Shown: positions 1 to 16,076 of the stretch, piece by piece
How the letters are laid out: each line of letters opens with the position of its first letter
Position numbering within the stretch: the first letter of the stretch is position 1
DNA from: an uncultured Streptomyces sp.
Lineage (GTDB): Bacteria > Actinomycetota > Actinomycetes > Streptomycetales > Streptomycetaceae
DNA length: 16,821 bases
Assembly: GCA_946480485.1 (NCBI GenBank)
Contig: CAMLJW010000060.1
Span: 1 to 16,821 of the forward strand
Direction: 5' to 3'
Program-made: the position numbers and the translations under genes
Notes under the pieces: model-generated
Told to the model about the DNA's origin: nothing
Databases searched by the model: none
The model's input: only the letters and a program-made list of their open reading frames with translations

Positions 1-619
1 GTGCGGCGCACGCGGTGTGAAGGCGGTGTACGGCGTCCAGCACCAGTGGGTGACGTAGTTGCCAGGGCACGCCATAGGACTGGGACAGGTCTCCGGGGCC
101 GGGCAGGACGAGGTCGACGCCTCCGCCGGTCAGGAGTTCGTCGATGGCGTCCACGCCTTCGGCGTCCTCGATCAGTGGGATGAGCATGACCTCGGCGTTG
201 GCCTGCCGTATGTACTCCACCGGGTCGAGAAGCCCGAAGCCGGGGACACGTCCGCCGTTGAGGGAGCGCATGCCCTTGGGGGCGTAGTAGGCGGCTTCGA
301 GAGCGGCGTCGACGTCGCTTCGGGTCCGCACGTGCGGCACCACGATGCCCATGGCCCCGGCGTCCAGCGCGCGCAGCGCCGCGCCGGGGTCGGCTTCGGG
401 TACGCGCACGAACGGCGTGAGGCCGGTGGTTTCGGCGGCGCGGATCAGGTGCTCCAGCTGCTGCGGGTCGACGAGGGTGTGCTCGGTGTCGAGGATGACG
501 AAGTCATACCCGGCGCAGCCCGTCATCTCGACCAGTGCGGTGGCGGGAACCGAGCAGTAGAGCCCGTGCACCTCTTGGCCGGCGGCGAGTTTCCGCTTGA
601 CCGCGTTGGGACGCAGCAC
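1..619 (-). CDS. HpcH/HpaI-type aldolase, SbnG-like citrate synthase (partial, 3' end outside window)
   Basis: The visible 206 residues belong to the class II HpcH/HpaI pyruvate-aldolase fold. Seen: GYDFVILDTEHT at residues 37-48 with the presumed catalytic His47, Arg72 in FVRVP, the segment YAPKGMRSLNGG (113-123), metal ligand Glu151 in PLIEDAEGV, and Asp177 in GPGDLS. Arg72, Glu151 and Asp177 fall at the numbers I recall for the active site of SbnG, the staphyloferrin B citrate synthase that condenses oxaloacetate with acetyl-CoA. That, and its place at the end of an NIS operon, suggests it supplies citrate for the siderophore. The GTG start at 619 lies one base after the decarboxylase stop, with GGAG about 10 nt upstream. 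SbnG is about 259 aa, so roughly 50 residues are missing off the left edge. A catabolic 2-keto-3-deoxy acid aldolase is the alternative; context argues against it. Confidence 0.85.
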   Translation of the reverse strand, partial: MLRPNAVKRKLAAGQEVHGLYCSVPATALVEMTGCAGYDFVILDTEHTLVDPQQLEHLIRAAETTGLTPFVRVPEADPGAALRALDAGAMGIVVPHVRTRSDVDAALEAAYYAPKGMRSLNGGRVPGFGLLDPVEYIRQANAEVMLIPLIEDAEGVDAIDELLTGGGVDLVLPGPGDLSQSYGVPWQLRHPLVLDAVHRLHTACAA

Positions 620-620
620 G

Positions 621-1925
621 TCAGCTCAACTCCAGTTCGGTGTCGGGGACGTCGGTGTCGGGGACTTCGGCGTCGGCGTGTGCGTCGGCCCGCGCGTCGG
701 CGTCGGATGCGCCGCCGAGGAAGTGGAAGCTTGGCCGTGGGTGCATCAGGAAGTCGTGGTGGGAGATGTTCCACGCATAGGCGCCCGCGAGGCAGAACGC
801 CACCCGGTCGCCGGCCCGGAGCCCCGGCGCGGGGACGTGTCGGGCCAGTATGTCCTTGGGGGTGCACAGCTGGCCGGTGAGGGTGACCCGGTCTCCCCGC
901 GTCACAGGGCGCGGCCAGGGGTGCGGCCAGGGCTTGGTCACCGGCAGGACCGTGCAGGGCTGGTCGTGGCCCTTGGTCGCCGGGGTGCGCAGATGGTGGG
1001 TGCCGCCGCGGACGACGGCGAACTCCTCTCCGTGGCTGAGCTTCACGTCCAGCACCTCGGTGGCGTACCAGCCGCAGTAAGCGGTCAGCGCACGACCGGG
1101 CTCGATGCGCAGGACCAGTTCGGGGTGGGCATCCGCGAGACGGCCGATTCCCGTGCCGTACGCCGCCCAGTCGAAGCGGGCGTCCGGGTCGGCGTAGTCG
1201 ACGGCCATACCGCCGCCGACGTTGACCTCGGCGAGACGGATGCCGTGGTGTTGGGCGAGCGCCAGGGACCAGGCCACGATCGACTCGGCGGCGTCGAGGA
1301 GTTGGGGGGCGTCCAGTCCGCTGGCGAGGTGGGCGTGGATGCCGCGCAGCTCCAGGTGCGGGTAGGTGCCGTCGGTCAGAAGGCGTACGGCCTCGTCGGC
1401 CCGGGCGGGGTCGAGGCCGAACGGGGTCGGGCGGCCGCCCATCGTGAGGGAGCTGTCCTCCAGGGAGCCGTCGGACAGGGGGAGGTTGAAGCGGAGGAGG
1501 ACCGGGATCCGGGTTCCCGGGGCGACGCGTTCGGCGAGGGAGGCCAGCATGTGGAGTTCGTACGCGCTCTCCAGGTGGAAGCGTTCCACGCCCTGTTCCA
1601 GGGCCGCCGTGATCTCGGCCGGCGTCTTGCCCGGGCCGCCGAAGGCCAGGGGGCGGCCGGGAGCGGCCTTGCGGACGTGGCTGAGTTCGCCTCCGGAGGA
1701 GACCTCGTAGCCGTCCACGTACGCGCCGAGCGCGGCCAGGATCTCCGGCTCGGGATTGGCCTTGGCGGCGTAGTACAGCTCGACGCGCTCGGGCAGCGCC
1801 GCGCGGACATGCGCCGCGTGGTCGCGCAGCGCCGACAGGTCGTACAGGTAGGCGGGCAGCTCCGCGGAGGCGAGCGTGAGGGCGCGGTCGCGCACCACGG
1901 CGGTCGGGGCGGCGGGGGCGGTCAT
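621..1925 (-). CDS. PLP-dependent siderophore decarboxylase (diaminopimelate/ornithine decarboxylase fold, PvsE/SbnH-like)
   Basis: A 434-residue fold-type III PLP enzyme with an alanine-racemase-like N-terminal barrel and a C-terminal beta domain. Seen: YYAAKANPEP (51-60) with Schiff-base Lys55, HAHLASG (197-203), the glycine loop VNVGGG (234-239), phosphate-binding EPGR (275-278), the Cys354 region QLCTPKD, and Tyr383 in GAYAWN. In NIS pathways such enzymes (PvsE, SbnH) decarboxylate a citryl-amino acid intermediate rather than free diaminopimelate. The substrate here, citryl-serine or citryl-diaminopropionate, cannot be read from the sequence. The ATG at 1925 overlaps the stop of the upstream synthetase by 4 nt (ATGA), so translation is probably coupled. 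Odd: the last 28 or so residues are a low-complexity Asp/Ala/Glu tail (from about 407) beyond the normal end of the fold. Confidence 0.9.
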   Translation of the reverse strand: MTAPAAPTAVVRDRALTLASAELPAYLYDLSALRDHAAHVRAALPERVELYYAAKANPEPEILAALGAYVDGYEVSSGGELSHVRKAAPGRPLAFGGPGKTPAEITAALEQGVERFHLESAYELHMLASLAERVAPGTRIPVLLRFNLPLSDGSLEDSSLTMGGRPTPFGLDPARADEAVRLLTDGTYPHLELRGIHAHLASGLDAPQLLDAAESIVAWSLALAQHHGIRLAEVNVGGGMAVDYADPDARFDWAAYGTGIGRLADAHPELVLRIEPGRALTAYCGWYATEVLDVKLSHGEEFAVVRGGTHHLRTPATKGHDQPCTVLPVTKPWPHPWPRPVTRGDRVTLTGQLCTPKDILARHVPAPGLRAGDRVAFCLAGAYAWNISHHDFLMHPRPSFHFLGGASDADARADAHADAEVPDTDVPDTELELS

Positions 1926-3694
1926 CGGGCCGTGCCCCAGACGTCGTCGGTGTGGGAGTCGCCGGCCGGCACGTGCTCGGCGAGCGGGAACGGGGAGGCG
2001 AGGCGGACATAGCCCGCGTCGCGGTCCGCCTTGCGCTCCCAGCGGGTGAGCAGGTTGGCCTTGGCGGGCAGCGGTACGCCGGCAAGCAGCGCGCTGAGCC
2101 TCGGCGGGCGGCCGTGCGCGTCGGCGTAGTCCTGGATGGTGGCGCGGACCCGGGCCCACAGGTCGGCCTCGATCTCCGGGTGGAGGTCGGCGAGGACGGC
2201 GAGCAGCTCGGCGACGTGGTTGACCAGCAGGCAGTAGACGACCCGGTCCCAGCCCCGCTGCGCGTCGTACGTCATCGGGGTCGCGACCTCGGGCGGCAGG
2301 GCGGCCAGGGTGTCGGCGTGGTGGTCCGGGAGGAGCTTGGTGCCCTCCAGGTCGCGGAAGAGGACCTGGGCGGGCATGCCGTCGCCGTCGACGCAGACGA
2401 GGACGTTCTGCAGATGCGGTTCGAGGACCAGGCCGTGGTCGAAGTAGGCCGCCAGAACCGGTGGGAGCAGCAGATCGAGGTAGGCGCTCCACCAGGCCAG
2501 GGCGGCCCGGGGTCCCGCGCCGTTAAGGAGGCGGGAGATATGGGCGGGCCCTGTCGGGTATTCGTCGGCGATCGCGGCGGCGAGCAGCGGGGTGGTGCCG
2601 GGCATCAGCCGCTGGGGCAGCCCTTCGCGGACGATCACGCCGAAGCCTTCGAGAAGGGCCAGGTCCGGGCGCCCGTCGGGGCCGGGCAGGGCGAGGCTGC
2701 GGTAGGCGGGTTCCTGGAGCACGGCGCTGCCGGGGAAACGGGTCTCCAGGTCGGCCAGCACAGGTTCCAGGAGGCGGGTCAGCGCGACGGCGCCGGACAG
2801 CTCGTAACTGGCGTTCTTGCGCAGGCAGTTGGTGATCCTGACGTTCAGGCTGAACTTCAGGAACGTATCGCCGTCGTACAGGGTCCGCACGGAGGCGGTG
2901 GCGGCGAAGGGCCGCTCGCCGAGGCCGAGGTCGAGGATGTCGCCTCGCTCCAGGGCTGCCCGCAACCCCGGGTGCTGGCACAGCAGTTGGTACTGCCAGG
3001 GGTGTGCGGGCAGCAGCCGGTAACCGTCGGGCACGGCGGGGTGCAGCCGGTCCAGCGGCGCGGACGCGTCGGCGGTCGTGCTCTCCTCGGCGATCAGGTG
3101 GCTGCGTACGGCCAGCAGGCGCAGCGGGAAGGCCGCCTGCGCCTCGGGCGCGTACGCCGTCCAGGACGCCGGGTCCCCGGTGCGGGCCTTGGGTGTGGGG
3201 TGGAAGCGATGTCCGAAGAGCAGAGACTGCTCGGACGCCAGGTAGGTGGCGAGCCGGTCGCCGCCTCCGATGGCCGGACGGGGCAGGGCTCGCGCGGCGA
3301 GGACGGCGGAGACGGCTTGATGGCTGGAGGTGATCTGTTCCAGGAACTCGTCGTTGCTCACGCCCGTACGCAGGGACAGTTCGGCGTGCGCGTATGCGGC
3401 CAGTCCGCGCCAGTCGACCTCGGCCCAGCCGCCGTTTCGCTGCTCGGCGTGCACGGGGCCGGTGAAGCGGTGCGCGCCGAACAGGGACGTGCGGCGCAGC
3501 GCGACCCGCAACAGCACGCCGCGCCGCGGCAGTCGCAGCAGCAGGTGGCCGTCGGCGACGGCCGTCTGGTGCTCGGGGCCGGACAGCTCGCGCAACAGGC
3601 AGTTGAGGAGGGTGTACGCCACGGCCTCGTCGGCTGTGGGCAGCCCGGTCGGCGCGGCGCAACGGAGGGAAACGCTGCCGGTGGGCAGTGACAT
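1922..3694 (-). CDS. NIS synthetase, IucA/IucC family (canonical, PvsD/SbnE-like)
   Basis: A 590-residue IucA/IucC-family ATP-dependent ligase, near the usual 580-620. The ATP/substrate motifs are all present: HPTPKARTG (165-173), HPWQ (231-234), KFSLNVRITNCLR (280-292), EPHLQN (425-430), RDLEG (447-451), and a C-terminal FhuF-like segment with PAKANLLTRW (543-552). The family adenylates a carboxylate, typically citrate, and joins it to an amine or alcohol. By position it matches PvsD/XssD and would be expected to catalyse the first condensation of citrate, before the adjacent decarboxylase acts. That step assignment is inference. ATG at 3694 shares one base with the MFS stop (TGATG), and a TTGGAG ribosome site lies just upstream. 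Upstream in-frame starts would run into the MFS gene and were not chosen. Confidence 0.93.
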   Translation of the reverse strand: MSLPTGSVSLRCAAPTGLPTADEAVAYTLLNCLLRELSGPEHQTAVADGHLLLRLPRRGVLLRVALRRTSLFGAHRFTGPVHAEQRNGGWAEVDWRGLAAYAHAELSLRTGVSNDEFLEQITSSHQAVSAVLAARALPRPAIGGGDRLATYLASEQSLLFGHRFHPTPKARTGDPASWTAYAPEAQAAFPLRLLAVRSHLIAEESTTADASAPLDRLHPAVPDGYRLLPAHPWQYQLLCQHPGLRAALERGDILDLGLGERPFAATASVRTLYDGDTFLKFSLNVRITNCLRKNASYELSGAVALTRLLEPVLADLETRFPGSAVLQEPAYRSLALPGPDGRPDLALLEGFGVIVREGLPQRLMPGTTPLLAAAIADEYPTGPAHISRLLNGAGPRAALAWWSAYLDLLLPPVLAAYFDHGLVLEPHLQNVLVCVDGDGMPAQVLFRDLEGTKLLPDHHADTLAALPPEVATPMTYDAQRGWDRVVYCLLVNHVAELLAVLADLHPEIEADLWARVRATIQDYADAHGRPPRLSALLAGVPLPAKANLLTRWERKADRDAGYVRLASPFPLAEHVPAGDSHTDDVWGTAR

Positions 3695-5292
3695 CAACGG
3701 CTCCAACGAAGGTGGGGGTAACGGTGGATCAGCGTGGGAAGAACGGTGGCCGGCACCGTAATCACGGCGACGGCGGTGCCGATGAGCAGGGGCGCCGTCG
3801 GTCCGAACCAGCTGTTGCCGGCCGCGGCGGCCAGGCCGGCGGCGACCGCGCCGGCCTTGGAGGCGAACTCCAGCGAGCCGAACATCCCGCCGGGGGCGCG
3901 CCCCTTGGCGCAGTCGGCGGCGAGCACGGACAGACAGACCAGGCCGAGAGTGAGGCCCGCGCCGAGCAGCAGCCGTACGGCGACGAACCCGGCGGGCGAA
4001 CCGGCGAGGGTGTGCCCGGCCAGGCCGAGCGCGATACCGCCGAAGCCGAGCGCGATGCCGGACCTCGGGCGGTCCCGGAAGGCGGCGTGCACGGCCATCG
4101 CACCGACCAGGTAGCACAGGTGCGGCAGGGCGAAGAGCAGTCCGGACAGAACCGGCGAGGCGCCCGGTATGCGCTTCTCGACGAGTGAGATCAGGTACGG
4201 GAAGGAGATGACGGTCGAGAAGACGAATGCGAACTCGAAGGCGTAGAGGGCACGCAGGGGGCCCGGCGCGGGCTCGGCCGTGCGGTGCTCCGCTGCGCCG
4301 GGCTCGGCGCGACCGAGTCCGGTACGGGCGGGCTGGGCGTGGACCGGCTGGGTGTGGCCGGGCCGGGCACGGGCGGAATCGGCGCGGCCGGGCACGATGC
4401 GACCCGGCTCGACCGTACCGGGCTCGCTGGGGGCGGACTCGGACCCGGCGGCGGACCCGGCGGACTCGGACCCGTCAGGTTCGCGCTCGGCAGCGGCTTC
4501 CGCCTCGGCAGCCCTGCCCGCGGTCTCGTCCGCTCGCGGTTCCGGGAGCGCCGCGAGCATCAGGGCCGCGGCGAGCGGCAGTACGGCGAGCAGGGCGTAC
4601 TGGCGGTGCGGCGACAGCCAGGGCGACAGCGAGCCGACGACTATCGGCGCGAGGACGAGCGCGGCGCGGGCGCTGCCCTGCATCAGGGTGAGCGCCTTGG
4701 ACAGGGCAGGGCCCTTCAGTGCGGCGCCCAGGTAGCCGTTGGAGGCGGCGAACGTGCCGCCGAGCACGCCTTGGAGCACCAGCGCCGCGGTGAAGGCGGG
4801 CAGGGAGTCGGCCCATCCGGCGAGAAGGAACGACACGGCGAGGCCCAACTGGGCGCGCAGCAGCAGCCGTTTGCGGCCGAAGCGGTCGGCGAGCCGCCCC
4901 CACAGCGGTGCGCCGAGCCCGCCGAAGACGGTGGGCACGATGTAGAGCAGCCCGGCCCAGCGCGCGGTCGGGTCGCCGAGCTCCGGCAGGATCTGGGTGA
5001 GGTAGGGCGGCAGGCCGAGAGCGGCGAAGGACGCGACGAAGTAGCAGCCGGCGACGGCGTGAATCTGACGACGGCCGAGCTGGGAACCCGGTGTCCCACT
5101 CGATTCCTCGGCCAGTGTCTCACCCGACCCCACGGGCGGTGTTTCCGTCGGCCCCACCATCGGTGCCTCCGTTGGGCCCGCCGTCCGTCCCTCCATACGT
5201 CCCTCCATACGTCCCTCCGTACGTCCCTCCGTACGTCCCTCCGTACGTCCCTCTGTCGCGGGCGCGCGCTCGGGCGGTGCGGTGGCGGTCAT
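3694..5292 (-). CDS. MFS transporter, probable siderophore exporter (PvsC/SbnD-like)
   Basis: A 532-residue major facilitator with two hydrophobic halves of about six helices each. Motif A, GRLADRFGRK, is at 132-141 in the loop after TM2. The position between two NIS synthetases is that of PvsC in vibrioferrin clusters, so export of the finished siderophore is the likely role. Typical members are about 400-420 residues. The extra length is in two places: a roughly 75-residue hydrophilic N-terminus containing six tandem EGR(T/M) tetrapeptides (14-37), and a roughly 97-residue Glu/Pro/Ala/Arg-rich linker (250-346) between TM6 and TM7. ATG at 5292 overlaps the preceding stop by 4 nt (ATGA). The substrate is inferred from context only. 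Confidence 0.88.
   Translation of the reverse strand: MTATAPPERAPATEGRTEGRTEGRTEGRMEGRMEGRTAGPTEAPMVGPTETPPVGSGETLAEESSGTPGSQLGRRQIHAVAGCYFVASFAALGLPPYLTQILPELGDPTARWAGLLYIVPTVFGGLGAPLWGRLADRFGRKRLLLRAQLGLAVSFLLAGWADSLPAFTAALVLQGVLGGTFAASNGYLGAALKGPALSKALTLMQGSARAALVLAPIVVGSLSPWLSPHRQYALLAVLPLAAALMLAALPEPRADETAGRAAEAEAAAEREPDGSESAGSAAGSESAPSEPGTVEPGRIVPGRADSARARPGHTQPVHAQPARTGLGRAEPGAAEHRTAEPAPGPLRALYAFEFAFVFSTVISFPYLISLVEKRIPGASPVLSGLLFALPHLCYLVGAMAVHAAFRDRPRSGIALGFGGIALGLAGHTLAGSPAGFVAVRLLLGAGLTLGLVCLSVLAADCAKGRAPGGMFGSLEFASKAGAVAAGLAAAAGNSWFGPTAPLLIGTAVAVITVPATVLPTLIHRYPHLRWSR
5186..5257 (-). repeat. Six tandem copies of a 12-bp coding repeat at the 5' end of the MFS gene
   Basis: On the plus strand the unit CGTCCCTCC(A/G)TA recurs six times in register (5186, 5198, 5210, 5222, 5234, 5246), with the last copy diverged. 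On the coding strand each unit gives one Glu-Gly-Arg-Thr/Met tetrapeptide. As the unit is a multiple of three, copy-number changes keep the frame. Diverged EGRT-like words continue downstream in the gene (TEAP, GPTE), suggesting an older, longer array. Confidence 0.93.
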
Positions 5293-7070
5293 CGGGCGTC
5301 CACCGCCCTCAGCAGGTAGTTGGGGCCCCGTGTGTAGTGCTTGTTGATGTCGGCGGCGCCCGAGCGTTCCTTGCTGAGCAGGGTGCCCGCGGTGACCATG
5401 GCCTTGACGGGCAGGTCGGGCGCGTCCAGGACGTGGGCGCGCAGTGTGGCGCCCGGTTCGCCGGGTGCCGTGCCGAGCCGCTCGACGGCTTCGGCGAGCC
5501 GGTCGCGTACGAGCCGCAGCAGCTTTTCCAGCGGGGCGCGGCCGTGGCGGGCGAGTCCGAAGGCATAGGCACCCGCGCACAGGTGGACGGTGATGGTGGT
5601 GAACAGGTCGGTCAACGGCCGGTCCTGGCTGCCGACGATGCGGGGATCGACGAAGTCGGCGGCGTCGAACACGTCGGTGCCGAGGGCAGCGCTCAGCCGG
5701 TCGGCGTTGATGCGCGGCCCGTCGTTGTCCTTGAACAGGAGCCGCAACCGCGGGCCGGTGCCGTCCTGGTCCAGCACCAGCGAGATGTTCTGCTGGTGGG
5801 ACTCCAGGGCGATGCCGTAGCCGAAGAGCGTGGTCTGCCAGTCGAACAGGAGGCTGAGGCAGGCGTCCAGCAGGGCGAGCGGGTCACCGCCGTAGAAGCG
5901 GTCGGCGAGATGGTCGACAACCAGCCGGCCGCGGCCGCCCGGGGCCTCGCTCAGCAGCGCGGCCGGCGAAACGACGACGGCGTCGTCGAGACCGGCCGGG
6001 TAGCGGCGGCACAGGACGGCGAGAAGCTCGTGCCCGGCATGGGCGTACGTGCTCTCGTCGGCGTGCAGGATCCTGCCCCGGAAACGAGGTTCGCGAGCGG
6101 TCACCGTCTCGACCAGACGCTGCCCGAGGGCACCGTTGACGAGCGTGCGGGGCTTGATGGTGCGCCGGTTGCGCAGGCCCAAGGAGGCGGTGGCAAGGGG
6201 CAGTTTGAGGTGCAGGGCGGGGTCGGTGGCCAGCGCGACCGTGCGCATCGACAGGGTGGGTACGACGTCGAGGTACGGCTCCTCGACAAGGACGGCCTCG
6301 TCCTCGAGTCCGGCCTCGCGCAAGGCGTCCCGCAGCGGGGCACCGACGGTGAGCGGGTGGACGGGGACGGCCAGGTGGCTGCCGTGGCGTTCCGGCAGGC
6401 CCAGGTCCGACGGTGTCGGCAGGCAGTCGGGCAGGCCCGCCGTGCCGTCCGCGACGGTGAGGGCGTACCGCGGCAGGGCGAGCCAGCGCAGTGCGAAGCG
6501 CGGGTGGAACTCGGGCGCCCAGGAGCGCAGTTGGTCTTCGCCGAGGCCGGATCGGCCGCGGGCCGTCGGGTAGACGGGGTGGTCGAGGTGGGCGGCGAGG
6601 GTGTCGTGGGCGAGGCCTGCGGCCAGGCCGGTCCAGTGGGCGGGATCGGTGCCGTAGCGCCCGGCGAGCCGGTCCGTCACCTCTCCGTGGGCCGCGGCGT
6701 GCAGCCTCATGGTCGCCAGCGTCTGCCGGCACTCCTCGGCGAAGGCGTCGAATCCGTCCCGGTCGACGGGCGCGGCGAGCTCGCGCAGCGCGGCGACGAC
6801 CTCCTCCACCGAGGCCAGTTCGGCACCGTCCGACTCCCGCCGCAGCAGCGGCAGCCGGGCCGCGTCCGCGCACTGGAAGCCGTCCTCGGCGACCGGCAGC
6901 AACAGGGCGTCGCCGTCTTCGGCCGCCAGTCGCAGCCACCGGCCGTCCGCCCGCTCCACGGCTGTGCTGCGGGCGCGCAACCCGACGACGTCCTCCCGTA
7001 GCAGCGCGCTGAGCACACGCTGCACCAGGTCCGCCTCAACGGCGTCAGGCGTGGTGGTGATCGTGGACAT
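5289..7070 (-). CDS. NIS synthetase, IucA/IucC family (divergent, PvsB-like)
   Basis: A 593-residue protein recognisable as IucA/IucC family, but with altered motifs. HPVYPTARGRSG (164-175) replaces the usual HPxxKxRxG, HPLT (238-241) replaces HPWQ, and FKDND (446-450) replaces the RD motif. LHLKLPLATASLGLRNRR (286-303), ESHQQN (423-428) and the C-terminal PVKAMVTAGTLLSK remain typical. In vibrioferrin-type clusters this position is PvsB/XssB, thought to perform a second condensation onto the citryl intermediate; this is an analogy, not shown here. The ATG at 7070 shares its A with the ATP-grasp stop (TGATG), and a strong GGGAGG site sits at 7081-7086 inside the upstream gene. The following MFS gene overlaps the end by 4 nt. 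Confidence 0.9.
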   Translation of the reverse strand: MSTITTTPDAVEADLVQRVLSALLREDVVGLRARSTAVERADGRWLRLAAEDGDALLLPVAEDGFQCADAARLPLLRRESDGAELASVEEVVAALRELAAPVDRDGFDAFAEECRQTLATMRLHAAAHGEVTDRLAGRYGTDPAHWTGLAAGLAHDTLAAHLDHPVYPTARGRSGLGEDQLRSWAPEFHPRFALRWLALPRYALTVADGTAGLPDCLPTPSDLGLPERHGSHLAVPVHPLTVGAPLRDALREAGLEDEAVLVEEPYLDVVPTLSMRTVALATDPALHLKLPLATASLGLRNRRTIKPRTLVNGALGQRLVETVTAREPRFRGRILHADESTYAHAGHELLAVLCRRYPAGLDDAVVVSPAALLSEAPGGRGRLVVDHLADRFYGGDPLALLDACLSLLFDWQTTLFGYGIALESHQQNISLVLDQDGTGPRLRLLFKDNDGPRINADRLSAALGTDVFDAADFVDPRIVGSQDRPLTDLFTTITVHLCAGAYAFGLARHGRAPLEKLLRLVRDRLAEAVERLGTAPGEPGATLRAHVLDAPDLPVKAMVTAGTLLSKERSGAADINKHYTRGPNYLLRAVDAR

Positions 7071-8260
7071 CACGGGGTGACCTCCCAGCGCTGCGCGGCG
7101 AGCAGGTCGTCGGCGACCCGGTCCACCGTCTCCTGATCGGTGCCGACGGCTCGCAGCACACCGACGTAGTCCCGGTTGGTGTGGTACAGCTCGTGCCGCT
7201 CCCCCAGCCCCCGCAGCGGGCGGTAGGCCAACTGGACGCCGTCGACGGTCAGATCGGCGGCGGGCGGGGCCGCGGTGAGCGTTCCGGGGCCGGGGGCGCA
7301 CAGGTGGTCGATGCGGGCCGCGCCGTCCGTGCGAGCGCCCAGGTCGGCGGGCAGCGGCTTCCCCAGGTGCGTGTGGAGGATGTGCTCGAACAGCGGGATG
7401 TCCAGCAGCTGGGCGAGCATCAGGTCGCACTGGTCGCCGATGGCCCGGTAGTTGACCTCGATGATCCGGGCACGGCCCTGGTGCGTCACGAACTCGGTGT
7501 GGCAGGCGCCGAATCCGACGCCGAGCGCGTCGAGTTGCGCCAGCACCTGGGTCACGACCGGCTCAGGATGCGCGGGGACGAAGCTGTGCCGTCGCTCGAT
7601 GAAGTGCGGCGGCGCGGAGAGCTCGGTGTGGAAGCCGCCCAGGACATGCCGCGTACGGCCGTCGCCGAGGGTTTCCAGGGTGTGCAGTTCGCCCGCGAGG
7701 TACTCCTCCACGACCAGCGCCGCGCCGGGTCGCCGGGCCTGGATCTCCTGGCAGCGCGGCACCAGTTCGTTGGGCCCGCCGACCAGCACCACGTCCTCGC
7801 TGGCCACGCCCTCACGCGGTTTGACCACGCACGGGTACGGCACGCTGAGGCCGGTGAGTGACACCGGATCCTCCCCCGCCGCGAGCTCCGCCGACCAGAC
7901 GGTGTCGGCGCCGGTCGCGGCGAGGTGGCGGCGCAGGTGCGCCTTGTCCTTGGTGCGCAGCGTCGCCCGCCAGTCCTTGGCGGGCAGGCCGAAGTAGTCG
8001 GCGGCCAGGGCGGCTTGGGTCTGCAGGTGGTCGCTGTTGGTGAAGACCGCGTCGGCGCGGCGGTGCGTCGCTATCCGGCTGATGACCGCACGGAAGTCGC
8101 GTACGTCGCACTCCAGGACCTCGGTCCTGGGATGACGACGCCGGTGGGGTTCTGGCTGGTCGGTGAGGATCGTGACGTCGAGGCCGAGCCGGGTGGCGGC
8201 GGGCAGAAAGCCTTCGCTGACGGAGTCGGTGGGGTTGAGGGCAAGCAGGTGGAGCCTCAA
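7070..8260 (-). CDS. ATP-grasp ligase, first gene of the siderophore operon (PvsA/XssA-like)
   Basis: A 396-residue ATP-grasp-fold enzyme (carbamoyl-phosphate synthase/D-Ala-D-Ala ligase superfamily), which forms amide bonds through an acyl-phosphate. Seen: CVVKPREGVASEDV (144-157) with ATP-binding Lys147, VVEEYLAGEL (183-192), and RARIIEVNYRAIGD (263-276) with probable Mg ligands Glu268 and Asn270. I chose the TTG at 8260 because GGAAAGG (8269-8275) lies 8 nt upstream and it gives a natural beginning, MRLHLLALNP. The open frame extends to 8359, but that would place coding sequence over the promoter and iron box. It heads the operon, as pvsA does in vibrioferrin clusters, and probably joins an amino acid (Ala in vibrioferrin) to the citrate core. 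The actual amino acid is unknown. Confidence 0.87.
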   Translation of the reverse strand: MRLHLLALNPTDSVSEGFLPAATRLGLDVTILTDQPEPHRRRHPRTEVLECDVRDFRAVISRIATHRRADAVFTNSDHLQTQAALAADYFGLPAKDWRATLRTKDKAHLRRHLAATGADTVWSAELAAGEDPVSLTGLSVPYPCVVKPREGVASEDVVLVGGPNELVPRCQEIQARRPGAALVVEEYLAGELHTLETLGDGRTRHVLGGFHTELSAPPHFIERRHSFVPAHPEPVVTQVLAQLDALGVGFGACHTEFVTHQGRARIIEVNYRAIGDQCDLMLAQLLDIPLFEHILHTHLGKPLPADLGARTDGAARIDHLCAPGPGTLTAAPPAADLTVDGVQLAYRPLRGLGERHELYHTNRDYVGVLRAVGTDQETVDRVADDLLAAQRWEVTP

Positions 8261-8328: not shown

Positions 8329-8359
8329 ATATTAGGTTAGGCATACCTAACCTTGTCAA
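8329..8359 (-). promoter_or_regulatory. Iron-regulated promoter of the siderophore biosynthesis operon
   Basis: On the minus strand a perfect -35 TTGACA (8354-8359) is followed by a -10-like TAATAT (8329-8334) at 19 bp; slightly shifted -10 readings give 17-18 bp. The iron box fills the spacer. A transcript would start near 8322 and leave a leader of about 60 nt before TTG 8260. Confidence 0.7.
8332..8350. promoter_or_regulatory. Iron box (DtxR/IdeR/DmdR-type operator)
   Basis: The sequence TTAGGTTAGGCATACCTAA matches the actinobacterial iron-box consensus TTAGGTTAGGCTAACCTAA at 17 of 19 positions; only the central two bases are swapped. Lying between the -35 and -10, an Fe(II)-loaded repressor bound here should block polymerase when iron is plentiful. 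Confidence 0.92.
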
Positions 8360-8406: not shown

Positions 8407-9282
8407 TCAAGAGGAGCGAGGGCCGCCCTCGGGAATGACGAGCGGTGTGCCCGCGACGGGGCATGGGATGACGGCGGCGCGCAGACCGAACACGTCCTCG
8501 ACAAGAGCCGAGGTGACCACGTCGGCCGGTGCTCCCACCGCGACGATCTCGCCGTCGCGCATCGCGATGAGGTGATCGGCGTACCGGCAGGCGAGGTTGA
8601 GCTCGTGCAGGACCATGACGACGGTGCGGCCCTTGGCGCGGTTGAGGTCGGCGACGAGTTCGAGGACGTCGACCTGGTGGGCGAGGTCGAGGTAGGTGGT
8701 CGGCTCGTCGAGGAGGAGGACCGGGGTGTCCTGGGCGAGGGCCATGGCGATCCAGACGCGCTGGCGCTGGCCGCCGGAGAGCGCGTCGAGGGTCCGGTCG
8801 GCGAGCGCGGCGGTACCGGTGGCCTCCAGGGCCCGGTCCACGACGTTCTCGTCGGCGGCTGACCACTGACGCCACCAGCGCTGGTGCGGGGTACGGCCGC
8901 GGGCCACCAGGTCGCGCACCGTGATGCCGTCCGGCGCGGTCGGCGTCTGCGGCAACAGGGCCAGCCGGAGGGCGATTTCCCGGGCCGCGAGGTGGGCGAT
9001 GTCCTGGCCGCCGAGATGGACGGCACCGCCCGTCGGCTTGAGCAGTCGGGCCAGGGCGCGCAGGGCGGTGGACTTGCCGCAGGCGTTCGGACCCACCAGC
9101 GCGGTCACCTTGCGTGCGGGAATCTCCAGGTCGAGTCCCTCGGCGACGACATGGCCGCCGTAGCCCAGGCGCAGTGCCGTGCCGGTCAGCGTGGCTCCGC
9201 CGGGCGCCGTGGTCGCGCCGGCGCGGCTTCCGCCGACCGTGGCGAGGGCCTCGGAATGGTTCTTGTCGGGCGCGGCGGTCAT
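8407..9282 (-). CDS. ABC transporter ATPase for iron-siderophore uptake (FepC/FecE family)
   Basis: A 291-residue ABC ATPase that powers import of ferric siderophore through the two neighbouring permeases. Seen: Walker [10 protein letters not shown] (64-72), Q-loop Gln112, signature LSGGQ (168-172), Walker B VLLLDEP (188-194), and switch His226 in VLHELN. The N-terminal 30 residues or so are a poorly conserved extension before the first strand. ATG 9282 is preceded by GGGAGG and lies 1 nt after the upstream permease stop, so the three genes are co-transcribed. No hairpin is evident between its stop and the iron-regulated promoter at 8329-8359, so read-through into the biosynthesis operon is possible. 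Confidence 0.95.
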
Positions 9283-9283
9283 G

Positions 9284-10339
9284 TCAGCCTCCCTTTCCGG
9301 CCCGGTTGGCGCGGGCGAGCAGCAGCAACAGATACGGGGCGCCGACGGCGCCCGTGATGACGCCGACCGGCAGCTCGGTCGGCGAGAAGACCAGGCGGGC
9401 GGCGAGGTCGGCGAGCAACAGCAGTACGGCTCCGGTGAGTCCGCTCAGGACGAGCGGAATCCCGGCCGTCCCGGCCAGCCGGCGGGCGATCTGCGGGGCG
9501 CCCAACGCGATGAAGGCGACGGGCCCCGCGGCCGCGGTCGCCAGGGCCGCGAGGCAGGTGGCGAGCAGCAGCAGCGCGATACGGGCCCGGCCGATCCGTA
9601 TGCCGAGAGCCAACGCGGTGTCGTCGTCGAACTGGAGCAGTTCATAGGCGCGGGCCAGCGCTACGGTCAGCGGCAACAGGACCAGCAGCGCGAGCCCGGC
9701 CCAGCGGACGTGGTCGTAGTCGCGGCCGTTGAGACTGCCGGTGAGCCACACCATGGCGCGGGACGCCTGGTCGATGTCGGCGCGGGCGAGCATCCAGCGG
9801 GTCAGCGCCACCAGGGCGCCGTTGGCCGCGAGGCCCACGAGGACGAACCGGTAGCCGGTGATCGTGCCGCCGCGCCAGGCCAGTACGTAGATCACGGTCG
9901 CGGTGGCGAGCGCGCCGGCCAGCGCCCCGAACGGCACCGCCCCGAAGGTACCGGCCGCGGCCGCGGTGATCCCGCCCAGCAGGATCGCGCCGACCGCGCC
10001 CGCCCCGGCCCCGGCGGAGATGCCGATCAGGTCGGGGCTGGCGAGCGGATTGCGGGTGACGGCCTGGTAGACGGCGCCGGCGACACCGAACGCGGCGCCG
10101 ACCAGCAGGGCGGTCAGCGCCCGCGGCAGGCGCAGCTGATAGACGATCAGGTCGGCGTCCCCGGATCCGGTGCCGAGCACCGAACCGATCACATCCCCGA
10201 CGGGGATGGAGAAGGTGCCGAGCGACACCGAGGCGATCAGGGCGGCGAAGGCGGCCAACGCGAGGCCCACGGCGGTCAGGGCGATCCGCGGCCGCAGCCG
10301 CATCCCGACCGGACCGAGTTCCATGTGCAGGGGCTTCAC
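9284..10339 (-). CDS. FecCD-family ABC transporter permease (second permease)
   Basis: A 351-residue integral membrane protein with about ten hydrophobic segments, the normal FecCD/BtuC size. Seen: the family-typical stretch from [20 protein letters not shown] through [17 protein letters not shown] (about 83-120), and near the C-terminus the cytoplasmic coupling region [12 protein letters not shown] followed by a Leu-rich helix and [18 protein letters not shown]. It would form the translocation channel with the other permease. GTG 10339 overlaps the upstream stop by 4 nt (GTGA); an internal ATG at 10324 (MELGPVG) is a possible alternative start. Siderophore specificity is inferred from the adjacent biosynthesis genes. 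Confidence 0.93.
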
Positions 10340-11412
10340 CGGGTGTGCTCCTTGAGCTTGCCGCGCTTGACGAGTGCCGCGAGGAAGGGGGCGCCGATCA
10401 GCGCGGTCACCACACCGGCCTCCAGTTCACCGGGTCGGGCCACCATCCGTCCGATCACGTCGGCGGCCAGCACCAGGGTCGCCCCGCCGAGCGCGGAACA
10501 GGGCACCAGCCAGCGGGCGTCCGGTCCGGTGAAGGCCCGCACGACGTGCGGTACGACCAGGCCGACGAACGTGAGGGGCCCGGCGGCGGCCACCGCGGCG
10601 CCGGTCAGCAGGACGACCGCGAGCGCGCCGAGGGCCCGGGTGGTACGGACCCGCGTCCCCAGGGTGGACGCCAGGTCGTCACCCAGGGCGAGGGCGTTGA
10701 GGCGTCCGCTCAGCGCGAGGGCGAGCAGCAGCCCGGCCACGATGAACGGCAGCAGTTGTACGCCGAGGCCCGCGTCGCGGCCCGCGAGCGAGCCCACGGC
10801 CCAGTAGCGGTACTGGTCCAGGGTGCTCACATCGAGCAGCAGCAGCGCGTTGGTACAGGCTTCCAGCAGTACCGTGACGGCCGCTCCGGCCAGGGCGAGT
10901 TTGGCGGGCGTCGCGCCTCCGTAGCCGGTGCCGCCGACGGCGTAGGCGAGCAGCCCTGCCAGTCCGCCGCCCAGGAACGCGAACCACACGTACTGGTACG
11001 AGCTGGTCAGCCCGAGCAGCCCGATGCCCGACGCGACGGCGAACGCCGCCCCGGCGCTCACGCCGATCAGCCCCGGGTCGCCCAGCGGATTGCGGGTGAT
11101 GTCCTGCGCGACGGCTCCCGCCGCTCCCAGCGCCAGCCCCGCCAGCAGGCCGAGCAGGGTGCGCGGCAGGCGCAACTCCCGTACGACGACGGCGTCGCCG
11201 TCCGTGCCACCGCCGATCGCGGTCAGCACGTCGGACAACGGGACGGCTTTGGCGCCGATCGCCAGCGAGGCACATCCCGCCACGGCGAGGACGGCGAGCA
11301 GGACGAGCAGCACGAAGACGCGCGACCCGGCGCCACGGGCAGGCCGTGGCCAAGGCGCGGGCGGCGCCGCGGACGCGGGCGCGACGGAGGAAGGCTTCAA
11401 GGACACGCACAC
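10336..11412 (-). CDS. FecCD-family ABC transporter permease (first permease)
   Basis: A 358-residue FecCD-type permease. Seen: RELRLPRTLLGLLAGLALGA (78-97), then TRNPLGDPGLIGVSAGAAF, the coupling segment VVPHVVRAFTGPDARWLVP, and a C-terminal ELEAGVVTALIGAPFL. It pairs with the next permease as a heterodimeric channel. The first 30 residues or so are a Pro/Ala-rich cytoplasmic extension. The start is uncertain: GTG 11412 directly abuts the iron box and has no clear ribosome site, GTG 11406 is two codons in, and a leaderless transcript or a later start is possible. It is the first gene of the minus-strand import operon and diverges from the binding protein. Confidence 0.9.
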   Translation of the reverse strand: MCVSLKPSSVAPASAAPPAPWPRPARGAGSRVFVLLVLLAVLAVAGCASLAIGAKAVPLSDVLTAIGGGTDGDAVVVRELRLPRTLLGLLAGLALGAAGAVAQDITRNPLGDPGLIGVSAGAAFAVASGIGLLGLTSSYQYVWFAFLGGGLAGLLAYAVGGTGYGGATPAKLALAGAAVTVLLEACTNALLLLDVSTLDQYRYWAVGSLAGRDAGLGVQLLPFIVAGLLLALALSGRLNALALGDDLASTLGTRVRTTRALGALAVVLLTGAAVAAAGPLTFVGLVVPHVVRAFTGPDARWLVPCSALGGATLVLAADVIGRMVARPGELEAGVVTALIGAPFLAALVKRGKLKEHTR

Positions 11413-11434: not shown

Positions 11435-11496
11435 AATCTTCCACCACCCTCTGTGCGCGGACTGTGAAGGACGGGTTATGCTCACGCAGGCTTTAC

Positions 11497-11515
11497 ACAG
11501 GTAAGCCTTACCTAA
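11497..11515. promoter_or_regulatory. Iron box upstream of the binding-protein gene
   Basis: The dyad AGGTAAGCCTTACCT (11499-11513) is extended to a 19-mer that, on the minus strand, agrees with the iron-box consensus at 15 of 19 positions. It sits 20 nt before the ATG at 11536, overlapping the expected promoter or early leader. Confidence 0.82.
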
Positions 11516-11535
11516 CTCCATCACTCGGGAGAACC

Positions 11536-12546
11536 ATGTTCACCCTTACCCGTCACCGCGGACGCCGCGGTGCCCGTCTCGGCGCTCTCGCCCTCACCGC
11601 CGTCCTGGCCGCTGGTCTCTCCGCCTGCGGCGGCTCGGACAGCTCGGACGGCAAGTCGGCCGACAGCAGCGCGGCCGCCGCCGAGAAGTCCACCGGCTTC
11701 CCCCGAACCATCGAGCACCACAAGGGCAAGACCGAGCTCAAGGCCAAGCCGCAGCGGATCGTGGCCCTGGACAACAGCCTCGTCGAGGCCGTTGTCGCGC
11801 TCGACCGGCCGCTGGTCGGCGGCATCGGCTCCTACCGCGACCAGGAGGGCTTCCCTCCCTACCTCGGCGACGCCGTCAAGGACACCAAGGACGTCGGCCC
11901 GCTCGACAGCCCCAACCTGGAAGCGATCGCCGCACTCCAGCCCGACCTGATCGTCTCCGCCACGGTCCGTCACGACGACCTCTACGACCAGCTCAGCAAG
12001 ATCGCCCCCACGGTCTTCGTCGAGACCACCGGCCCGCTCTGGAAGGACAACATCACCCTCCTCGGCAAGGCTCTCGGTGAGGAGGACAAGGCCAAGGAGG
12101 AGATCACCGCGTACGAGACGCGCGCCAAGAAGATCGGCGACGCGATCAACGCCAAGGCGGACAAGCCCACCGTCTCCCTCCTCCGCTTCGTCGACGGCCC
12201 CACACGTATCTACCTGCCCAAGACCTTCAGCGGCATCATCCTGTCCGACATGGGGCTGGCCCGTCCGAAGAACCAGCAGGATCCCGAGAACTTCAACATC
12301 GAGATCAGCGAGGAGCAGATCGAGCAGGCCGACGCCGACGTCCTCTTCTACACGGCCTTCTCCGGCGGCGAGGAGCGCGAGAAGAAGTTCCTCTCCAACC
12401 CGCTCTGGAAGCGCCTGGACGCCGTCAAGGGCGGCAACACCCACAAGGTGAAGGACGAGTCCTGGATGACCTCCGTCTCCCTCCAGGGCGCCGAGATGGT
12501 GCTCGACGACATGGCCGACATCTTCAAGGTCGACCCGGCCAAGTAG
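11536..12546 (+). CDS. Iron-siderophore ABC transporter substrate-binding lipoprotein
   Basis: A 336-residue FepB/CeuE-like periplasmic-binding-protein-fold lipoprotein. The N-terminus has an Arg-rich region, a hydrophobic core and lipobox LSAC with Cys31 as the lipidation site, then a Ser/Asp-rich tether (32-48). The body carries class III binding-protein hallmarks: PQRIVALDNSLVEAVVALDRPLVGG near the start, DSPNLEAIAALQPDLIVSA in the middle, and a C-terminal WMTSVSLQGAEMVLDDM helix. It would capture the ferric siderophore at the cell surface and deliver it to the divergent permeases. ATG 11536 is chosen over the upstream in-frame start (11464) because GGGAGA immediately precedes it, it gives a proper signal peptide, and the iron box must lie upstream. 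Confidence 0.94.
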   Translation: MFTLTRHRGRRGARLGALALTAVLAAGLSACGGSDSSDGKSADSSAAAAEKSTGFPRTIEHHKGKTELKAKPQRIVALDNSLVEAVVALDRPLVGGIGSYRDQEGFPPYLGDAVKDTKDVGPLDSPNLEAIAALQPDLIVSATVRHDDLYDQLSKIAPTVFVETTGPLWKDNITLLGKALGEEDKAKEEITAYETRAKKIGDAINAKADKPTVSLLRFVDGPTRIYLPKTFSGIILSDMGLARPKNQQDPENFNIEISEEQIEQADADVLFYTAFSGGEEREKKFLSNPLWKRLDAVKGGNTHKVKDESWMTSVSLQGAEMVLDDMADIFKVDPAK

Positions 12547-12746: not shown

Positions 12747-13148
12747 TCAGTCGTCGTCGCGGTCGAGCAGTTCCTTGACGCCGTGGGCCGTGAGCGCCAG
12801 CTCCTCCGGTGTGCCGGCGTCGATGACAAGCGAAAGCCGCTCATCGGGCCAGCCATGGGCGAGCGCTCCGAGCACCACGCTGCGGTGCCGCCTGATCTGC
12901 GGAAGTACCTGCTCCATGCGGTCCTGGGTGGTGAAGACCGGAACCAGCTCGGTGCCGTCCTCCTGTTCGAACACGGGCAGGCTCAGTGCCATGGGAGCGG
13001 GCCCTTCCGCGTCCGGTCCGGTGGGGAGCAGAACCTCGCTCCTGGCCAGCGTGCTCAACGCCGTCTCGTCCACGGCGCCCTCGACGACCGCGCGCAAGGC
13101 CTGCTGGGCGGCGGAAGCAGAGCCGCTGTGAGAATGGGAGTCAGTCAC
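12747..13148 (-). CDS. SseB-like domain protein (paralogue 1)
   Basis: A 133-residue acidic, soluble protein with no signal or membrane segment. The core LPVFEQEDGTELVPVFTTQD, then LALTAHGVKELL near the end, resembles the SseB N-terminal domain (named for enhanced serine sensitivity in E. coli), a family of unclear biochemical role. GTG 13148 gives VTDSHSHSGS; the longer open frame to 13325 runs back over the divergent intergenic region and is not preferred. It is a clear paralogue of the gene at 13664-14080, sharing SLPVF/VLPVL, the VPVFT(T/S) segment, WPDE(R/E)L(S/Q)LVID and ELALTA/ALALTA. Start moderately sure, function unknown. Confidence 0.75.
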   Translation of the reverse strand: MTDSHSHSGSASAAQQALRAVVEGAVDETALSTLARSEVLLPTGPDAEGPAPMALSLPVFEQEDGTELVPVFTTQDRMEQVLPQIRRHRSVVLGALAHGWPDERLSLVIDAGTPEELALTAHGVKELLDRDDD

Positions 13149-13179
13149 GGTTCGTCCAATCGCCGTATCGAAATCAGGG

Positions 13180-13203
13180 CTCCGAACGGAGTCGAGAGCT
13201 CGA
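13180..13203. promoter_or_regulatory. Two abutting 12-bp dyads in a divergent intergenic region
   Basis: CTCCGAACGGAG (13180-13191) is followed directly by TCGAGAGCTCGA (13192-13203); each has 5-bp arms and a 2-bp centre. They lie between the divergent SseB-like and DUF1876-like genes and could be operators. No specific regulator is recognised. Confidence 0.3.
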
Positions 13204-13315
13204 GTACCCGAACCTGCGAGACCCATGTGACAGCTGCTCGGAACCGCTCCGCATAGGGCGGCGGGATCCGGGCACTCGTCGCGTGCACGGCACAACGGCG
13301 TACGGGAGGGTCGCC

Positions 13316-13585
13316 ATGCAGGCACACCTCAACTGGCATATCGACCTGGACATCGAGCGGACCGAGACCGAGAGCAAGGCGACCGCCTCACTCCGGTTGC
13401 CCGACTCCAGTCGGCTGACGACCCACGGACATGCCCGGCGTAATCCCGACGACCCGGAGCAGGCCCGGGTGGGTGAGGAACTCGCCGCGGCCCGGGCACT
13501 CAACGACCTGGCCCGACGGCTGCTCCGCAAGGCCGCCCACGAGATCGAGGAGACCACGCACTCGCCGGCGCACCCGCACCCATGA
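13316..13585 (+). CDS. DUF1876-like (dsRBD-fold) small protein
   Basis: An 89-residue soluble protein matching the actinobacterial DUF1876 family, annotated elsewhere as dsRBD-fold-containing. Seen: a W-H-(I/V)-D-L-D opening (8-13), ATASLRLPDS (22-31), HGHARRNPDDPEQARVGEEL (37-56), and ARALNDLARRLLRKAAHEIE (59-78), a terminal amphipathic helix. ATG 13316 has an ideal GGGAGGG site (13304-13310) 5 nt upstream. It diverges from SseB-like paralogue 1 and converges on paralogue 2. No catalytic residues are evident and the function is unknown. RNA binding is suggested only by the fold name. Confidence 0.85.
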   Translation: MQAHLNWHIDLDIERTETESKATASLRLPDSSRLTTHGHARRNPDDPEQARVGEELAAARALNDLARRLLRKAAHEIEETTHSPAHPHP

Positions 13586-13647: not shown

Positions 13648-13686
13648 GCACCTTGCTCTCCCGTCAGTGACGGGAGAGCAAGGTGC
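13648..13686. terminator. Perfect 39-bp palindrome, probable bidirectional terminator
   Basis: The left arm GCACCTTGCTCTCCCGTCA (13648-13666) is the exact reverse complement of the right arm (13668-13686) around a single G at 13667. It sits between the convergent DUF1876-like and second SseB-like genes; the latter's stop codon and last seven codons lie inside it. Either strand's RNA could fold into a long stem. No T-tract is visible. Confidence 0.8.
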
Positions 13687-14080
13687 GGATTCCCTCGGCG
13701 GTCAGGGCCAGCGCGTCGGAGTGGCCGGGGTCGATGACCAACTGCAGCTCCTCGTCGGGCCAGTCGGCGGCAAGCCGGCCCAGCGGCGCCAGCCGGTAGG
13801 ACAGGACGTTCGGCAGGGCGTCGCCCAGCCGCTCCTCCGAGGTGAACACCGGCACCGACTGAGAGCCGTCGACCTGGTCGAGCACGGGAAGGACCACCGC
13901 TCGCGGGTCCCCGTCGCTCCGCTCGTAGTCCTTCGGATCGACGACCGGTATCAGGACCGGTGTCTTGGCCAGCACGTCCAGGGCCGCCTGCAACGCCTCC
14001 CCACCCAAGGAGTCGTCGGTCAGGACGCTGAGGGCCTCCTGAGCCTGCGAAGGCGTCGGATGATCGGGGATGTCGGGCAT
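13664..14080 (-). CDS. SseB-like domain protein (paralogue 2)
   Basis: A 138-residue soluble acidic protein, paralogous to the gene at 12747-13148. Seen: TPVLIPVVDPKDY (45-57), VVLPVLDQVDGSQSVPVFTS (68-87), LAADWPDEELQLVIDPGHSD (104-123) and LALTAEGIRTLL near the C-terminus. This is the pattern of the SseB N-terminal domain, whose molecular role is not established. It is slightly longer than paralogue 1 at the N-terminal side of the core. ATG 14080 follows a GGGGG-rich ribosome site by about 6 nt. Its 3' end is embedded in the 39-bp palindrome. The two paralogues with a DUF1876-like gene between them may be a small stress-related cassette; that is inference. Confidence 0.8.
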   Translation of the reverse strand: MPDIPDHPTPSQAQEALSVLTDDSLGGEALQAALDVLAKTPVLIPVVDPKDYERSDGDPRAVVLPVLDQVDGSQSVPVFTSEERLGDALPNVLSYRLAPLGRLAADWPDEELQLVIDPGHSDALALTAEGIRTLLSRH

Positions 14081-14202
14081 GGTATGCCCCCATCGTGTCG
14101 GCGGGCCGGTACCGCGAACGGTCCCGTCTCGGCGTGATCGGCCTTCGTGTACCCGCTGTGTGGGCAGACATGCGCGGGTACTCTGCCGGAAGGAAGCGCG
14201 AG

Positions 14203-14233
14203 GCGGCTCCCACCGAAGCTCGGTGAGAGCCGC
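14203..14233 (-). terminator. Hairpin terminator after the copper-associated protein gene
   Basis: On the minus strand GCGGCTCTCACCGA pairs with TCGGTGGGAGCCGC around a 3-nt loop, all 14 pairs forming in RNA if one G-U is allowed. On the plus strand the same position is a C-A mismatch, so the structure fits minus-strand transcription. It begins about 50 nt after the stop and is followed by a C/T-rich run. Confidence 0.78.
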
Positions 14234-14281
14234 GCGCACCCTGCGGCACGCCGTGCAGGTCACTGCGCCGCCGCACAGGTC

Positions 14282-15704: not shown

Positions 15705-16076
15705 ATGGGCACCGCAAAAGGCTCAGGCTTCGACACCGAAACTCTGCGCCGGGCCATTGAAGGCCAGAACGCGCAGACACTCCTGTCGCTGTACGCCGAC
15801 GACGCGGAGCTCCGCATCGTCGACCGCAACACCCAACCCAGCCACCCGAAGGTCATGCAGGGACGCGAGCAGATCAGCGAGATGCTCAACGACGTCTACA
15901 GCCGCGACATGACCCACAAGCTCGAACAGTGCGTCACCCAGGGCGACCAGGTCGCCTTCACGGAGTCCTGCGAGTATCCCGACGGCGTCAAGGTGCTCGC
16001 CAGTTCGATGGTGGCCCTGCGCAACGGCAAGATCGTCGACCAGACCCTGCTGCAGGAATGGGACGGCGAGACGTAG
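15705..16076 (+). CDS. NTF2/SnoaL-like fold protein
   Basis: A 123-residue protein with the layout of SnoaL-like/NTF2-fold polyketide-cyclase-type proteins. Seen: an N-terminal helix, then LLSLYADDAELRIVDRN (26-42), VMQGREQISEMLNDV, the core strands FTESCEYPDGVKVLASSMVA, and a final LRNGKIVDQTLLQEW. These small cone-shaped proteins bind or isomerise hydrophobic ligands, or are catalytically silent; no specific substrate can be inferred here. ATG 15705 has a near-perfect AAGGAGGT site 5 nt upstream. It stands alone, diverging from the copper-associated gene and converging on a decayed fragment. No terminator hairpin of note follows. Confidence 0.85.
   Translation: MGTAKGSGFDTETLRRAIEGQNAQTLLSLYADDAELRIVDRNTQPSHPKVMQGREQISEMLNDVYSRDMTHKLEQCVTQGDQVAFTESCEYPDGVKVLASSMVALRNGKIVDQTLLQEWDGET

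Follow-up and report, generated by a model that had tools for sequence, protein, structure and literature searches.

A Streptomyces operon predicted to make a vibrioferrin-type citrate siderophore and carrying an SbnG-like gene as a putative citrate supply of its own

Vibrioferrin-type citrate-based iron scavengers are best known from marine bacteria. Vibrioferrin consists of citrate, ethanolamine, alanine and 2-ketoglutarate (PMC5577590), and within Streptomyces the avsABCD genes of S. avermitilis have already been termed a vibrioferrin-like polyhydroxycarboxylate siderophore cluster (PMC9394381); a table in the genome paper of S. tunisialbus also contains an antiSMASH region labelled 'Vibrioferrin 18%' (PMC7385001). 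Here we describe a 16,821-nucleotide stretch of DNA from an uncultured Streptomyces sp. (contig CAMLJW010000060.1; the whole analysed stretch is called the window below). Six consecutive genes on its minus strand encode, in this order, a PvsA-like ATP-grasp ligase, a nonribosomal peptide synthetase-independent siderophore (NIS) synthetase (NIS1), an exporter of the major facilitator superfamily (MFS), a second NIS synthetase (NIS2), a pyridoxal phosphate (PLP)-dependent decarboxylase and an SbnG-like enzyme. This set is a real and probably functional operon, and we consider it likely that it is an iron-repressed operon for a vibrioferrin-type citrate-serine carboxylate siderophore with its own citrate supply, the product being predicted from the gene content. 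Coordinates are collected in Table 1.

The genes lie where the preliminary description of this DNA had located a coupled ATP-grasp, NIS, MFS, NIS, PLP decarboxylase operon with an SbnG-like sixth gene. Each of the first five genes shares 1 or 4 nt with its neighbour (TGATG or ATGA), whereas a 1-nt gap separates the decarboxylase gene from the SbnG-like gene. The pvsABCDE-like order read from the window at that time is the same in a Vibrio fortis plasmid (L008) and in Piscirickettsia (L009). These two loci, identified as pvsABCDE by order and likeness, have the A-B-C-D-E order and related forms of both synthetases in common with the window, but they contain TonB receptors and no SbnG match, and their proteins are 28–42% identical to those of the window. 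An identical A-B-C-D-E-G order is found on plasmid pHG1 of Cupriavidus necator H16 (L004), although its SbnG belongs to another lineage with the motif EGAIDLSQS and the locus has a TonB receptor. The avsABCD cluster, compared by its published gene list, is alike in that three siderophore synthetase component genes are followed by a diaminopimelate-decarboxylase-like gene; it differs in that four genes are listed, without an MFS or SbnG gene, and it resembles an A-B-D-E form of the operon. The Sodalis locus L012, which we take to be an achromobactin-type cluster from its order and AcsD-like synthetase, also has a decarboxylase and an SbnG-like gene in common with the window, but it contains three synthetases, a diaminobutyrate aminotransferase and no PvsA.

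The relationships of the two synthetases were analysed in a tree of 68 rows, with aerobactin enzymes compared by bit scores only. The reference labels (SbnC/E/F/H, AcsA/C/D/E and PvsA-E) derive from operon position and likeness; the records themselves give the names SbnA (L007) or PvsA (L005) in some cases only. NIS1 groups with the first synthetase of the V. fortis, Piscirickettsia, Cupriavidus and Pantoea operons (support 100/100) and adjoins SbnC/AcsA-type rows; its matches to structures are weak and nearly equal (29.9 bits for 7cbb, presumably SbnC-like, and 27.0 bits for IucC). NIS2 clusters with the PvsD- and AcsD-type rows (100/98) and apart from SbnE. It scores 250.6 bits against AcsD, 134.5 bits against IucA and 49 bits against DesD, and by these scores NIS2 is unlikely to be an aerobactin-type synthetase. 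The two synthetases thus side with PvsB- and PvsD/AcsD-type rows, as had been expected, and neither groups with SbnC-, SbnE- or SbnF-type rows. The DesD row (L089, 427 bits to 7tgn) is distant from both; membership in a desferrioxamine cluster is ruled out, as the tree reveals no DesD-type synthetase in the window. AcsD couples citrate to L-serine and also accepts diaminopropionate, and its residues R305, E442, R501 and K563 have been implicated in recognizing the acceptor and in catalysis (PMC3323832). All four are conserved in NIS2 (R292, E425, R484 and K545), and they are kept in the PvsD rows of Streptomyces operons both without SbnG (55/55) and with it (8/8).

The remaining biosynthetic proteins fit this assignment. 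Both PDB matches of the ATP-grasp protein are L-amino acid ligases, and amide-bond formation is therefore favoured; the protein is 34.8% identical to its V. fortis counterpart. The best PDB match of the decarboxylase, 6knh (273 bits, with the next different enzyme at 143 bits), is identified as SbnH in a table of PMC7139808. The best NCBIfam match of the MFS protein is the rhizoferrin exporter FslB, at a score far below the cut-off. The N-terminus of the same protein consists of TEGR/MEGR repeats, which a 12-base tandem repeat at 5145–5253 encodes. When Streptomyces operons with SbnG (8 rows from 7 loci, including L023 with a decayed gene) were compared with those lacking it (55–56 rows), no column in PvsB, PvsD or the decarboxylase separated the two. 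Residue 225 of the ATP-grasp protein is H in 8/8 rows of the former and L, M, S or A in 56/56 of the latter; it was dropped as an SbnG-linked marker, since Rhodococcus, Cupriavidus and Pantoea do not share the H.

The best PDB matches of the SbnG-like protein are 4tv5 (172.6 bits) and 4tv6 (171.3 bits), according to their titles SbnG and its E151Q variant; the next match scores 109 bits. In a tree that included two catabolic rows, the protein falls within the clade of siderophore-cluster SbnGs, apart from HpaI/GarL. The 4tv5 match and the tree position rule out a catabolic HpaI/GarL-type aldolase, in agreement with the first view of this gene. The claim that the enzyme carries SbnG-type active-site residues holds for H47, R72, E151 and D177, all present in the alignment, but three neighbouring positions (149, 173 and 175) are changed, as discussed below. 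E151 is taken as an active-site position from the title of the 4tv6 variant, and D177 is another. The significance of H47 and R72 follows by analogy with His45 and Arg70 of EcHpaI (PMC8560999). A fold search with the predicted structure (pLDDT 80.9, with residues 114–128 mostly below 50) returned SbnG 4tv5 first and then HpaI aldolases. An older SbnG structure paper reportedly placed SbnG in one group with homologues encoded by further siderophore clusters.

The ancestry of the gene was examined in a context tree of 41 rows, in which homologue P0121 stands in for the window SbnG, as in our other SbnG tree (L023 and L127 were left out and L022 was not used; L061 duplicates L018, L122 duplicates L007 and L044 is part of L015). 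Ten actinobacterial Pvs-linked rows from nine loci form a single clade (99/97). It is nested within a set of 24 Sbn-type rows from Actinobacteria, whereas Cupriavidus and Pantoea branch outside; L021, L116 and L120 were labelled as Sbn-type on partial evidence. A single origin of all Pvs-linked SbnGs was rejected in the approximately unbiased (AU) test (p-AU 0.0006 when they were joined with Cupriavidus, and 0.0005 with Pantoea added), and so was an Sbn-type clade that excluded the Pvs-linked rows (p-AU 0.003); we defined these groups once the tree was known, and Pantoea forms a long branch next to the outgroup. Because these constraint trees were rejected, SbnG appears to have been gained more than once by Pvs-type operons. 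By this phylogeny, an Sbn-type SbnG was captured within Actinobacteria, separately from the Cupriavidus event.

The distribution of the genes was surveyed in the genus of Streptomyces sp. NBRC 110611 (G001) and in the family (Pseudonocardiaceae) and order of Actinophytocola (G004). In Streptomyces, the ATP-grasp gene is present in 59/246 genomes (60 hits, E up to 1e-60) and SbnG in 3/246 (E up to 1e-40), of which two (G001 and G090) lie beside Pvs genes and one (G094) in an SbnA-type cluster. The novelty for Streptomyces implied by the preliminary description is thus not supported, the avs cluster having been named before. The pairing of SbnG with Pvs genes is not unique either, for Cupriavidus, Pantoea, Rhodococcus and an Amycolatopsis-like genome have it as well, and its restriction to actinomycetes is refuted by the C. 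necator and Pantoea loci. By gene order, the 57 Streptomyces loci examined (56 of the 60 hits plus L015 of G001; G036, G052 and G154 were left out) comprise 31 A-B-D-E, 23 A-B-C-D-E, two A-B-C-D-E-G and one with A-B only. In genome G064, just the ATP-grasp and PvsB-like genes were found in a second copy (L070). At class level, 4/394 genomes contain SbnG, namely G001 and three with SbnA-type clusters.

A scan of genome contigs with P0121 gave nine loci. All six genes are carried by L015–L019 (Streptomyces); L023 has the five Pvs genes with a decayed SbnG, L020 ends at the decarboxylase, and in L021 and L022 SbnG is followed by a decarboxylase, L021 having three synthetases. The six-gene order recurs on two Rhodococcus plasmids as well as on pHG1. 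In Pantoea soli SbnG is placed in front of the Pvs genes, and in L109 (the Amycolatopsis-like G870) it is the last gene of a transporter operon transcribed divergently from the adjoining A-B-C-D. Among 249 Pseudonocardiaceae genomes, 23 contain SbnG and nine the ATP-grasp gene. Twenty SbnG loci were fetched from this family (those of G004, G602 and G642 were not, though G004 is in the set as L022 and G602 as L087): 16 have SbnA with other Sbn genes, two are partial (L116 and L120), one is Pvs-linked (L109) and one, with 38% identity, has no other siderophore gene match (L127). In the order (397 genomes), SbnG was found in eight genomes, all of them also among the family-level finds. Five loci (L121 and L123–L126) contain SbnA-SbnC-SbnF-SbnG-decarboxylase clusters with no SbnE query match and perhaps make a different staphyloferrin-like product; the SbnG match of L117 (G757) contains one in-frame TGA.

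The operon is probably iron-controlled, through predicted DmdR/IdeR binding to an iron-box-like palindrome ahead of the ATP-grasp gene. Searched with the iron-box consensus, the site has 2 mismatches on the plus strand and 3 on the minus strand, and 200 shuffles gave 0 matches. The hexamer TTGACA is located just upstream of the palindrome TTAGGTATGCCTAACCTAA, at 8359–8354; a sigma-70 scan under 16–18-nt spacing rules found no promoter. A box with up to 4 mismatches occurs within 300 bases ahead of the ATP-grasp gene in 24/67 related loci. Control pieces of these loci gave 6/1262, and other true boxes may be present in some of the controls. Operons directly behind transporter genes mostly have no box at this position, and their promoter is presumably further upstream. 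The ATP-grasp gene most likely starts with the TTG at 8260, because the closest named relatives are 396 amino acids long and match over 100% of the length; an alternative upstream ATG, at 8344, would fall within the iron-box-like site. A second box-like site, with 5 mismatches, is found at 11497–11515 near the lipoprotein gene.

In the pathway that we propose, the SbnG-like enzyme would condense oxaloacetate with acetyl-CoA to supply citrate when iron is scarce. NIS2 would adenylate citrate and join it to L-serine, as suggested by its AcsD kinship and the four functional residues, and the decarboxylase, from its SbnH kinship, would convert citryl-serine to citryl-ethanolamine. The ATP-grasp and PvsB-like enzymes would then add an amino acid and 2-ketoglutarate through amide bonds, in either order. 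Finally, the MFS protein would export the siderophore, and the adjoining ATP-binding cassette (ABC) system would re-import the iron complex. In S. aureus treated with an iron chelator, citrate was no longer detected when sbnG was lost in addition to citZ and citB (PMC11315280).

Several observations weigh against this scheme. A review gives ester formation by PvsA and decarboxylation of free serine by PvsE, both as proposals (PMC5577590, section 3.8), which departs from our second and third steps; we prefer our order because of the AcsD and SbnH kinships. R501 and K563 of AcsD are kept in SbnE-type rows too, so these residues do not discriminate between serine and diaminopropionate, and it is the tree that separates the two types. 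The clustering of the decarboxylase with PvsE-type rows is weak (80/87). In L023 (S. catenulae), five Pvs genes are accompanied by a decayed SbnG behind an intact decarboxylase (at about 9950–10260), with most of the N-terminal half lost, including E151. Since this gene has decayed and most Streptomyces operons have no SbnG, the enzyme is dispensable. The two Rhodococcus six-gene loci each contain, ~9–12 kb past SbnG, a gene that matches the SbnA query (34% identity) and is annotated as cysteine-synthase family; no SbnB match accompanies it. The substitutions M149L, E173P and A175P, present in 10/10 actinobacterial Pvs-linked rows (9 loci) and near E151 and D177 in sequence, might mean that another reaction is catalysed.

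These substitutions are the main support for the strongest alternative, in which the chemistry of the SbnG-like enzyme has changed (in its acceptor, its donor or its metal requirement), the pathway is supplied with another hydroxy-acid and the product is not plain vibrioferrin. The three residues are unchanged in 29/29 other siderophore-cluster rows compared (24 actinobacterial Sbn-type, S. aureus, two achromobactin-type, Cupriavidus and Pantoea), though they are not known to be required for SbnG function. The altered loop, LPGPGDLSQS, is seen in the window itself, and judged from sequence the three positions would be placed in the pocket. A175P looks like a return to the motif of catabolic aldolases, the two that were aligned having GPSDL and GPRDL; GP[GAS]DL is present in 44 of the homologues P0121–P0240, counted irrespective of gene context. 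Residue 215 also differs (P to A, S or T) in the actinobacterial Pvs-linked rows, at a position outside the window and uncovered in the S. aureus row. However, H47, R72, E151 and D177 are kept, and the lack of SbnG-linked columns in PvsB, PvsD and the decarboxylase suggests that the synthetases use the same acid, so citrate is favoured as the substrate. The Pvs-linked SbnG of Cupriavidus is unchanged at 149, 173 and 175, and the substitutions may have one origin in one lineage. We therefore regard changed chemistry as unlikely, and the same holds, at no better chance, for its fullest form, in which the actinobacterial Pvs-linked SbnGs would be a new functional subfamily of aldolase fold with an active site rebuilt after capture from a staphyloferrin-B-type cluster and a changed metal need or substrate, in operons that make a vibrioferrin relative on another hydroxy-acid.

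We regard it as very improbable that the product is staphyloferrin-B-like and that the genes for diaminopropionate are located elsewhere in the genome. Such a product would agree with the SbnG- and SbnH-like enzymes common to the window and the staphyloferrin B cluster, with the acceptance of diaminopropionate by AcsD itself and with the SbnA-like gene some kb off in Rhodococcus. The window, however, contains two synthetases of other clades instead of three, and an ATP-grasp gene in their company. The actinobacterial Sbn-type clusters stand apart from the Pvs operons, mostly with SbnA and an ornithine cyclodeaminase (OCD)/SbnB-like gene. Neither the window nor the five longer six-gene loci of Streptomyces (L015–L019) gave a match to the SbnA and SbnB queries; the absence of diaminopropionate genes noted at the outset is confirmed to that extent, but the Rhodococcus loci depart from it. 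A cryptic or decayed operon without a product, for which the decayed SbnG of L023 might serve as a precedent, is slightly less probable still, given intact frames across the window, five tight junctions, conserved active-site residues and the iron-box-like site.

Beyond the vibrioferrin-type operon, the window contains genes of an iron-siderophore transport system (Table 1), in which the lipoprotein probably starts at an internal ATG at 11536 rather than at 11464. Two adjoining minus-strand genes (12747–13325 and 13664–14263) encode SseB N-terminal-domain proteins, apparently a tandem pair. They are followed by a gene for a secreted-looking protein (14282–15346, minus strand) with a weak YtkA match below the cut-off and, at 15084–15221, a 21-base repeat encoding His/Glu-rich and possibly metal-binding repeats. 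A SnoaL-like protein is encoded at 15705–16076 on the plus strand. Rfam and tRNA scans of the window gave no matches.

Table 1. Features of the window. Pfam cut-offs for the IucA_IucC, decarboxylase and HpcH_HpaI families are 23–25 bits, and all four matches are well above them.
Feature	Coordinates	Strand	Evidence or remark
SbnG-like HpaI-family gene, 206 codons, 3′ end cut at left edge of window	2..619	minus	HpcH_HpaI 88.9 bits
PvsE/SbnH-like PLP decarboxylase	621..1925	minus	Pfam 99.3 bits; SbnH structure match
PvsD/AcsD-like NIS synthetase (NIS2), predicted to use citrate and L-serine	1922..3694	minus	IucA_IucC 168.5 bits; AcsD match; tree
PvsC-like MFS exporter, long low-complexity middle loop	3694..5292	minus	Pfam MFS_1
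PvsB-like NIS synthetase (NIS1), sister to SbnC/AcsA-type rows	5289..7070	minus	Pfam IucA_IucC 97.7 bits; tree
PvsA-like ATP-grasp ligase, 396 amino acids, TTG start	7070..8260	minus	Pfam ATP-grasp_4
Iron-box-like palindrome TTAGGTATGCCTAACCTAA, candidate DmdR/IdeR operator	8332..8350	minus	~70 nt ahead of ATP-grasp start
ABC transporter ATPase, iron-siderophore type	8407..9282	minus	NCBIfam enterobactin/FecE models 338/324 bits, below their cut-offs
FecCD permease 2	9284..10339	minus	Pfam FecCD 280 bits
FecCD permease 1	10336..11412	minus	Pfam FecCD 288 bits
Siderophore-binding lipoprotein	11464..12546	plus	Pfam Peripla_BP_2; diverges from permease/ATPase genes

What is new here, as read from the alignments and trees, is that the actinobacterial Pvs-linked SbnGs nest within the staphyloferrin-B-type SbnGs and carry lineage-fixed substitutions. 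If our interpretation is correct, a dedicated citrate supply would have been gained at least twice by vibrioferrin-type operons. This would be a repeated solution for citrate siderophore synthesis, the likely motive being that it could proceed while iron-dependent central metabolism is throttled. The frequency of the ATP-grasp gene among the sampled Streptomyces genomes widens the picture of this genus as mainly a maker of hydroxamates.

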